DNA from: Limnothrix sp. RL_2_0
GTDB taxonomy: Bacteria; Cyanobacteriota; Cyanobacteriia; Cyanobacteriales; MRBY01
Reading direction: 5' to 3'
NCBI GenBank assembly: GCA_012033055.1
Contig: JAAUPR010000017.1
Location: 7,945-51,365 of the forward strand
DNA length: 43,421 nt
Shown: piece by piece, positions 36,113 to 37,968 of the stretch
Position numbering within the stretch: position 1 is the first letter of the stretch
Layout: every line of letters begins with the position of its first letter
Translations under genes and position numbers: made by a program
The notes under the pieces: generated by a model
Databases searched by the model: none
What the model was told of the DNA's origin: nothing
The model's input: only the letters and a program-made list of their open reading frames with translations

Positions 36113-37813
36113 ATGCCATCAGATCAATTTTCGACTCAGGGTTTGGATAACGCCGAAGCTCGTCTGCAACAAATAAGCGCTGATTTAGATCACCTTAGGC
36201 AGAACCTAACCTCCCAACTTCAAGGGGAAGTGCAACAGCTCCAACAGCATAAATCCGAACTCCAACAGGAAATTCAGACCCTCGAAGCTCAGCGGCGATC
36301 GCTCATGCAGCAGATGGCACCGACCCTCGTCAGTGAACTAAAGAGCATCCTTAAAAAGCAAGGGGCCGCCAGCAACCAGATCAACGGCAGCACCCAAGAC
36401 ATCACAGCCTACGGCAACAACGCCAATCGGCTCATCGCTGACCTAGACAGCACCTTCCGGACAACATTTAAAACACTCCAGCTCGACCTCAACAGCTACC
36501 ATAGCTCCCTGTCCCAGCAGCTCAGTCAGATGTATACCCTAGAGCAGCAGGGCGAAGCGATCCTCGATGCCTTGGTCAACCGACTCAAAGAAGAATTGCA
36601 CGAACGGCAACAGCCAACCATTGCTCCCCCATCAATTATTCAACAAACGATGCCAGCGTCTACCACGACAGACTATGGCTATCAACAAAACCAAATTATT
36701 CAAGACAACCATGGCCCCCTCAACGGCGGAGCCTCTCTCCCAGAAAAGGAAGTCTACACCCCAACCCTAGGAGAAAACGCCAAGAAAAAAGAAATCACCT
36801 TCTCCAAGTCCCAGCTCGGACTAATGTTGATTTTATTTTCTTCATTAATTCTGTCCCTACAAAATGTCGTCATCAGCATTATTCTTAACCAAAGCTCGAT
36901 TTTCGGCTTGATTAAAACAGGCGGCTACATCTCACCGGGTATCGGCAATTCACTACTCATCCTTTTTCTTAGGATGGTTTTTGTGGTGCCAGCCATGTGT
37001 CTCATTGCCCGATCACTTCACCCTTCGAGTTTTAAGGACATTGAGAAATTCATTCAAACCAAAGATTGGATGCTGTTCCTCAAGGCGGCGGGTAGTGGTT
37101 TTGCGCTGTTCTTGTCCCAAGTATTGATTTATACAGCCCTTGGCCCTTTGTCGCCGGGGGTCGCCATTACGATCTTCTTTATCTTCCCTATTGTGACTTT
37201 GCTTTTAGCTTGGTTCGTCTTTGGGGAGCGGCCAACTAATGTACGGTGGTTGGTGGCTTTTTTGGTGGTTTTCGGGGTGGCACTGATTTCGGCTCCTTCT
37301 GGCTCATCTCAGCTCAACTTTCCCCTCGGTAGTGTGTTGGCGGCGATTTTTTCTGGGGTCTCTTTTGCGGCTTATATCTTGTTGACCCAAGCTTGTTCGA
37401 AAAAAATTCACCCTGTGCCATTTAGTGTGATCAACTTCGGTACCATTTTTGTCTTCTCGGCAATTAGCTTATTACTGACGTTTACGCCGCTTTTGCCTGA
37501 TTCTTGGGCGGTTGATGTGGCTCCGGGCAAAGGGTTTAGTGTGTTACTCAGTGGCATCATCTTGGGCGTACTGACGTTGCTGAGTTACCTATCGAACAAT
37601 ATCGGCATTAGTTATATCGGTGCGGCAATCTCATCAATTTTTGGGGCAACAGGGCCTGTACTCACATCATTACTGTCGCTCATTGTGATTGGCAAAACCC
37701 TGACTGGACAGCAGGTTGGCGGAATGTTGGTTGTCACAATTGGGGTGTTGGCGTTAAACCTCGAACGGATGTTTGGGGCGAAGGCGAAGGCCAAGCAGAA
37801 ATCGTCGGCTTAA
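36113..37813 (+). CDS. DMT (EamA-type) transporter with N-terminal coiled coil
   Basis: This 566-residue protein has a coiled coil at about 10-75 (LQQHKSELQQEIQTLEAQRR). A further helical stretch runs to about 170, then a Gln/Pro-rich linker to about 230. About ten membrane helices follow (LGLMLILFSSLILSLQNVVI, SPGVAITIFFIFPIVTLLLA, IISA-type GVALISAPSGSS, ISYIGAAISSIFGATGPVLT). They form two EamA halves. Plain DMT exporters have about 300 residues, so the 230-residue cytoplasmic extension is unusual. The substrate is unknown. The extension may bind a cytoplasmic or cell-envelope partner. Confidence 0.85.
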   Translation: MPSDQFSTQGLDNAEARLQQISADLDHLRQNLTSQLQGEVQQLQQHKSELQQEIQTLEAQRRSLMQQMAPTLVSELKSILKKQGAASNQINGSTQDITAYGNNANRLIADLDSTFRTTFKTLQLDLNSYHSSLSQQLSQMYTLEQQGEAILDALVNRLKEELHERQQPTIAPPSIIQQTMPASTTTDYGYQQNQIIQDNHGPLNGGASLPEKEVYTPTLGENAKKKEITFSKSQLGLMLILFSSLILSLQNVVISIILNQSSIFGLIKTGGYISPGIGNSLLILFLRMVFVVPAMCLIARSLHPSSFKDIEKFIQTKDWMLFLKAAGSGFALFLSQVLIYTALGPLSPGVAITIFFIFPIVTLLLAWFVFGERPTNVRWLVAFLVVFGVALISAPSGSSQLNFPLGSVLAAIFSGVSFAAYILLTQACSKKIHPVPFSVINFGTIFVFSAISLLLTFTPLLPDSWAVDVAPGKGFSVLLSGIILGVLTLLSYLSNNIGISYIGAAISSIFGATGPVLTSLLSLIVIGKTLTGQQVGGMLVVTIGVLALNLERMFGAKAKAKQKSSA

Positions 37814-37818
37814 CTGCC

Positions 37819-37846
37819 TTGCAAAAATGGTATGTTCTGCTACACT
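37819..37846 (+). promoter_or_regulatory. Candidate promoter of a small RNA
   Basis: TTGCAA (37819-37824) and TACACT (37841-37846) are 16 bases apart. A TG one base upstream of the -10 box makes it an extended -10 type. It starts 5 bases after the DMT stop codon. Transcription would begin near 37853. Confidence 0.45.
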
Positions 37847-37852
37847 ATGCGT

Positions 37853-37968
37853 TGTGTAAAGAAATATTTCTGACTTACGTGCTGGGAACGCGGGGTTTGA
37901 AGTTTATTCGATGCAAACAGAACAACAACAAGCTTGAGTCATGCCAGCGATCGCCTCGCTGGTTTTTT
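37853..37968 (+). ncRNA. Candidate small RNA of about 116 nt between the DMT gene and ycf51
   Basis: A plausible extended -10 promoter lies just upstream and a clean terminator ends the unit. No substantial frame lies inside; the only ATG frame is 8 codons (37911-37937, MQTEQQQA). It could be a free small RNA, or a short leader cut off before ycf51. I do not recognise a known family such as Yfr1, PsrR1, IsaR1 or 6S. Start position is inferred from the promoter. Confidence 0.4.
37944..37968 (+). terminator. Rho-independent terminator built on a HIP1 octamer
   Basis: CCAGCGA (37944-37950) pairs perfectly with TCGCTGG (37956-37962) around a TCGCC loop, followed by six T. The stem contains the HIP1 sequence. 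It lies 130 bases after the DMT stop and 90 bases before ycf51. Confidence 0.88.

Follow-up and report, generated by a model that had tools for sequence, protein, structure and literature searches.

A conserved small RNA gene upstream of ycf51 in Limnothrix sp. RL_2_0 as a probable homologue of NsrR1

The short region between an EamA-type transporter gene and ycf51 in Limnothrix sp. RL_2_0 raises the question of whether it contains an independent regulatory RNA or a control element of one of its neighbours. A preliminary description of the 43,421-nucleotide stretch that was analysed as a whole (the window) had proposed either a regulatory RNA that has a promoter and a terminator to itself or a peptide-leader attenuator in front of ycf51. 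We arrive at the view that the unit encodes a homologue of NsrR1, a small RNA controlled by nitrogen, and that NtcA presumably represses the window RNA under nitrogen scarcity, a reading to which we assign, from sequence comparison, a probability of roughly 0.84.

Organization of the unit

The unit comprises the following features:

37819..37824, + strand: -35 element TTGCAA, read from the sequence
37830..37843, + strand: putative NtcA-type operator GTATGTTCTGCTAC, a GTAN8TAC motif that partly covers the -10 box, assigned by motif conservation
37838..37846, + strand: extended -10 box TGCTACACT, read from the sequence
37851..37968, + strand: small RNA with a predicted length of about 115-118 nt; the models R1, R2 and R3 described below match 37853-37967 or 37853-37968
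37855..37915, + strand: long 5' hairpin of outer and inner helices, from the fold; 17 of 22 pairs of helices 1-4 are changed on both sides
37884..37889, + strand: conserved GGGAAC of the apical loop, from locus comparison
37921..37931, + strand: conserved CA-rich unpaired stretch AACAACAACAA, a candidate pairing region, from the fold and locus comparison
37943..37968, + strand: intrinsic terminator, a hairpin with six T, from sequence reading and as helix 5

The -35 element starts five bases past the stop codon TAA (37811-37813) of the upstream EamA gene and is separated by 16 nt from the -10 hexamer TACACT (37841-37846), which becomes an extended -10 box by virtue of the TG at 37838-37839, confirming the promoter that had been described at this place. 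With 8 of 12 hexamer matches by hand count, it is missing from the listing of our sigma-70 scan, whose threshold was 9. By visual inspection, many relatives have a box in the -35 region that is T-rich or resembles TTTACA. All 71 loci with the promoter pattern, which itself asks for TGNTAC, have a T as the last base of the -10 hexamer. The combination of GTAN8TAC with an extended -10 box occurs once in the window, where 0.24 matches are expected, and 21 of 100 shuffled windows also held one. The weight of this motif thus derives from its conservation and not from its presence in the window alone.

We infer that the RNA starts at G37851 or G37854 and ends in the T run. The terminator hairpin (37943-37963) is perfect, as had been stated, and runs into the six T at 37963-37968, closing the unit at the predicted length. 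The HIP1 element GCGATCGC that had been noticed in its stem is present at 37947-37954, and so is the 8-codon Gln-rich frame before the terminator, which extends from ATG to TGA at 37911-37937 and encodes MQTEQQQA. In the fold, the CA-rich stretch is single-stranded between the 5' hairpin and the terminator. The single-sequence fold of the window RNA shows no added stability compared to shuffles (z -0.12); the folds of four out of six relatives clearly beat their shuffles (z about -2 to -2.8), with values of -1.1 and -1.4 for the other two. HIP1 is found in the terminators of five of the six loci of the window's genus and in 21 of 65 others, and terminators without it contain alternative stem sequences with compensatory changes; its presence is incidental.

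Conservation of the RNA and its promoter

Besides the window's own genome (G000), the unit is kept in all five relatives of the same genus that were searched, including Picosynechococcus sp. PCC 7117 (G003), with identities of 79-86%. Among four weaker matches, two in other families (G024 and G032) are genuine units, which contain the promoter, GGGAACG, AACAACAAC and the terminator in the order found in the window. The other two, in G010 and G056, were not the RNA unit on inspection, and G056 carries it at another place, which was detected with R1, a covariance model that was constructed from eight sequences and covers only the RNA. This model matches 60 of the 291 genomes of the order (E <= 0.01). 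A second RNA-only covariance model from 32 sequences (R2) matches 142 of the 291 (E <= 0.05), with a single place in 139 of them, and finds no match at this threshold in the other 149, reflecting either absence or divergence. In a family that includes named Anabaena, Nostoc, Trichormus and Nodularia genomes (f33), R2 finds matches in 176 of 217 genomes at E <= 1. Across the phylum, it matches 37 of 292 genomes (E <= 0.05), of which 33 belong to the order; the promoter was read in two of the four matches outside the order and its motif is present in G443, which is of the same class, and lacking in G503. Second and weaker R2 matches at G232:C183:14415-14498 and G187:C60:21581-21652 are possible extra copies, and the second of two matches in G088 overlaps the first on the opposite strand.

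A covariation search in related genomes had been proposed as a check of the unit. In alignment A7, 87.0% of the cells are paired and 19 of 30 pairs are altered on both sides, counts that are biased towards the R1 structure to which the alignment was fitted. The terminator (helix 5) is paired in 99.2% of the cells, with two of its eight pairs changed on both sides. The covariation score of 0.391 compares to 0.211 for shuffles and at most 0.124 for slid controls, and although related sequences may outscore shuffles even in the absence of structure, the observed score exceeds both controls by a wide margin.

Since all models exclude the promoter, it offers an independent test of the family. The motif GTRN5TGNTAC, which corresponds to GTRN8TAC over an extended -10 box, is found within 90 bases upstream of the RNA in 71 of 75 distinct loci, compared to 6 of 3700 dinucleotide shuffles of the same upstream stretches. 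These 75 are the loci with fetched DNA, a part of the 142 genomes matched by R2, with identical repeats merged and L088 and L089, which duplicate other loci of the set, left out. The strict site is missing from L108, L122, L139 and L142. Of these, L122 is likely to be a true member in which the first base of the motif has changed, and the other three, which we take as false matches, suggest that the weak matches include false ones. In L080, L104, L107, L125, L127 and L143, the site is located further upstream.

Conservation within the genus, covariation and the conserved promoter all place the unit above chance, and together with its order-wide distribution and a promoter unseen by the models, they support the earlier suggestion of a regulatory RNA that has both a promoter and a terminator of its own. 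The comparison thus indicates that the unit is a real and conserved regulatory RNA gene under selection.

The spacing of promoter elements varies in some loci. In L080 (G206), where the promoter lies at -71, an insertion appears to set it apart from the RNA match, and the motif begins 39-53 bases upstream of the match in L104, L107 and L127. Nine of the 34 loci examined for it (L065, L066, L067, L069, L071, L073, L075, L077 and L081) contain an additional GTAN8TAC at -63 or -64, about 40 bp upstream of the first, which may represent another NtcA-type site in their family.

The RNA lies upstream of ycf51 in all six genomes of the window's genus, which, together with the Gln-rich frame, is what would be expected if it acted in cis on ycf51 as a leader or attenuator, possibly with the peptide sensing glutamine. 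However, in the DNA examined, which extended up to 1.5 kb to each side with some loci ending at contig ends, Ycf51 is absent around 69 of the 75 loci, and the six where it is found all belong to this genus. Conversely, the RNA is absent from the DNA examined at 46 of the 47 ycf51 loci of named genomes, with PCC 7117 as sole carrier. The frame is kept in three of the six loci of the genus, being lost in G001, which has an ATA, and in G004 and G005, where it is out of frame; among 65 loci outside the genus, one contains a dissimilar frame of five codons. A search of Rfam, riboswitches included, returned nothing above the gathering score at the locus and nothing at E <= 10. With a peptide that is not conserved and a linkage to ycf51 confined to the genus, the proposed leader and attenuator are thus left unsupported, and we regard this explanation as very unlikely. 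The absence of a matching Rfam family also implies that annotation based on this database would miss the RNA.

It is even less likely that the unit is just a part of the upstream EamA gene, either its 3' end or an accessory promoter, and has no function of its own. The position of the -35 box five bases past the EamA stop codon would suit such a role, but EamA is found upstream of the RNA in just three of the 75 loci (G000, G004 and G005), and the RNA and its promoter persist elsewhere without it. The window RNA is considered free-standing and probably trans-acting. The EamA gene itself (36113-37813, 566 aa) encodes a long, Gln-rich and apparently coiled-coil N-terminal extension that precedes the transporter domain, and the Pfam matches of its product are to EamA only.

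Relationship to NsrR1

In the sections of PMC6166021 considered here, NsrR1 of Nostoc PCC 7120 is given a length of about 110 nt from a northern blot and of 112 nt from its coordinates (2050703-2050814), and its homologues all contain GTRN8TAC partly overlapping the -10 box. According to the same sections, NtcA binds the NsrR1 promoter in gel shift experiments and the RNA is repressed upon nitrogen removal. Its targets are given as nblA and all1871 (PMC6166021, PMC7281752, both as consulted in part). The window unit shares this organization, with a predicted length close to 110 nt, a promoter of its own with GTRN8TAC over the -10 box, and an intrinsic terminator. In the family as a whole, the RNA has a median length of 112 nt with a range of 99-160 (71 loci, counted from the seventh base after the -10 box). 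As in the relatives of NsrR1, the window RNA contains a hairpin with a UUGGGAACG-type loop and an ACAAC region, its CA-rich stretch being a candidate counterpart of the GACAAC region of NsrR1, and GGGAA is present in all six loci of the window's genus and in 58 of the 65 other loci having the promoter site.

Homology was detected with R3, a model constructed solely from 29 loci of the Nostoc family, which finds the window unit at 37853-37968 with a score of 34.0 bits (E 3.7e-5), the next match scoring 9.8 bits (E 3.8). R3 also detects 24 of 49 other loci (E <= 0.01), including all five same-genus relatives. The connection to NsrR1 was made through the loci of these Nostoc-family relatives and not through the sequence of PCC 7120 itself. 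In L154, from the genus that holds Trichormus, the RNA has the U51, C63 and C66 published for NsrR1 and extends over 112 nt to the last T by hand count, if its start is set at the A that is the seventh base after the -10 box. These three residues are matched in 5 of 23 Nostoc-family loci when counting from base 7 or 8 and in 2 of 23 from base 5, and they fit at none of the bases 4-9 in the remaining 16, apparently due to small indels. In 8/16 and 4/7 Nostoc-family loci, the nearest long frames are placed like alr1709, upstream on the same strand, and all1710, downstream on the other strand.

Pairing of NsrR1 with nblA involves a segment that contains C63 and C66, whose partners in the nblA leader are G at -18 and G at -21 (described in part in PMC6166021). 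The nblA leader of G706 contains both G by hand count, and it is at this place that the family RNA encoded in G706 pairs with it (p 0.025), in a duplex test with 200 mononucleotide shuffles per gene. Position -21 is an A in G711 and a C in G708, with no pairing above chance in either, both G thus being present in one of the three Nostoc relatives checked. We classify the window RNA as homologous to NsrR1 because of the published signature, the fit of L154, the nblA partners in G706 and the R3 match.

Some features set the two RNAs apart. The window RNA resides upstream of ycf51, unlike NsrR1, and in a genus that, in contrast to Nostoc, is not known to form heterocysts. The pyrimidine-rich CUCU segment is replaced by UUUAUUCGAUGC; in Nostoc, this segment lies in the stretch of NsrR1 that is protected by all1871 (PMC7281752, as consulted in part). 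Pyrimidine-rich motifs between the hairpin and the CA stretch, from a list picked after the sequences had been seen, occur in none of six loci of the genus and in 50 of 62 others. This replacement, a sequence that has diverged outside a few blocks, and the finding that R1 has no match in Nostoc-family genomes (E <= 0.1) would fit a separate small RNA that came under a similar NtcA-type promoter by convergence and not by descent. We consider such an origin improbable, since the model based on Nostoc-family loci finds the window directly and intermediates share the order of blocks and mostly also the promoter spacing.

The published range of NsrR1 encompasses heterocystous strains and two close unicellular ones and was defined by BLASTN with a length cut (PMC6166021, as consulted in part). 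The distribution found here extends beyond this range, a mismatch that we read as a limit of the published search, given the method used. The open-access literature that was searched yielded no description of NsrR1 from Picosynechococcus or from the neighbourhood of ycf51. The parts consulted of PMC7760821 place NsrR1 and NsiR4 under NtcA 'in Nostoc and Synechocystis' without assigning them individually, those of PMC6778093 assign NsiR4 to Synechocystis and NsrR1 to Nostoc, and those of PMC10989914, PMC12282138 and PMC12718436 mention NsrR1 in their reference lists only.

Other cyanobacterial RNAs were compared by their descriptions, as far as these were accessible. NsiR4 is likewise an NtcA-controlled small RNA of nitrogen metabolism, but it is induced and not repressed by nitrogen stress. 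The NirP1 transcript, formerly listed as the non-coding ncr1071, is also repressed by NtcA but encodes a protein of mostly 76-86 aa (PMC10907346, as consulted in part), whereas the window RNA has no conserved frame. The NtcA regulon of Synechocystis is reported to include eight non-coding RNAs. PsrR1 and Yfr1 are small RNAs of similarly wide conservation; PsrR1 differs by its length of 131 nt and its induction by high light, and Yfr1 carries CACUCCUCACACC, which upon reading is absent from the window RNA.

Proposed regulation and evolution

NtcA acts together with 2-oxoglutarate, and an NtcA gene scoring above the curated cut-off is found in G000. Because the NtcA-type site lies over the -10 box, repression is expected under nitrogen shortage. 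The RNA would therefore be made when nitrogen is plentiful, whereas under shortage NtcA bound to GTAN8TAC would block RNA polymerase at the -10 box and cause the RNA to fall. As long as the RNA is present, its unpaired stretch would bind by base pairing close to the start of at least one mRNA and reduce translation, so that the genes concerned would rise under nitrogen shortage. While the nitrogen regulation of the RNA is likely conserved, its targets in the window's genus may differ from those in Nostoc, and we propose none.

The five same-genus genomes each contain two or three copies of nblA (11 listed). For 9 of the 11 genes, pairing with the RNA did not exceed chance (p values of 0.08-0.56) in a test of low power, which detected one of four genes in Nostoc relatives, and nblA may still be a target. 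When six genomes, with G004 and G005 left out, were scanned for sequences complementary to the CA repeat ahead of ATG, G000 gave 60 matches compared to 19 for the reversed pattern, and G001-G003 gave 29-43 compared to 19-24. Four target candidates (nine stretches, among the matches listed, none of which were from G000 or G006) were rejected, as they were located inside a coding frame, had no consistent start behind them or were found in G002 and G003 only.

What is new here, as judged from sequence, is a wide extension of the range of a known small RNA. Carriers with the promoter motif that are named and non-heterocystous include PCC 7117, Spirulina CCY15215, Trichocoleus FACHB-40, Kastovskya, Coleofasciculus LEGE 07092, Oscillatoria HE19RPO and Phormidium tenue FACHB-886, all from genera that are not known to form heterocysts. 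Control by NsrR1 thus appears older and more widespread than was thought, as the published RNA was confined to heterocyst formers and their close kin. The locus in G443, from another order, combines the promoter motif with an R3 match (E 0.006) and is likely a member of the family outside the order. It is conceivable, though we hold the odds to be slightly below even, that NsrR1 is an ancestral NtcA-repressed RNA of the entire order that was rewired in Picosynechococcus while the logic of its promoter stayed fixed. If it is ancestral to the order and not an invention of the heterocyst lineage, its first job would have been general nitrogen control, and a rewiring to other targets would be suggested by the replacement of the pyrimidine-rich segment, which resembles an anti-Shine-Dalgarno sequence, and by the prominence of the CA repeat in Picosynechococcus.

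The published restriction tied NsrR1 to some trait of the heterocystous group, and its presence with the promoter in non-heterocystous genera would make it a candidate for a general node of cyanobacterial nitrogen control. The family now reaches the genus of Synechococcus PCC 7002, a laboratory organism that is easily manipulated, and a promoter that stayed fixed while the pairing segment changed would offer a natural test of target change in a small RNA.

Two further observations concern the surroundings of the RNA in other genomes. At locus L123 of G012, which belongs to another family, the RNA and its promoter are placed between genes that, as read from their translations, are NFACT-like and GTPase-like. 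Close to the RNA gene in L007, at 1976-2051, we find a long and near-perfect inverted repeat with five Rfam matches to unrelated hairpin families, all below thresholds, which is perhaps a small mobile repeat.
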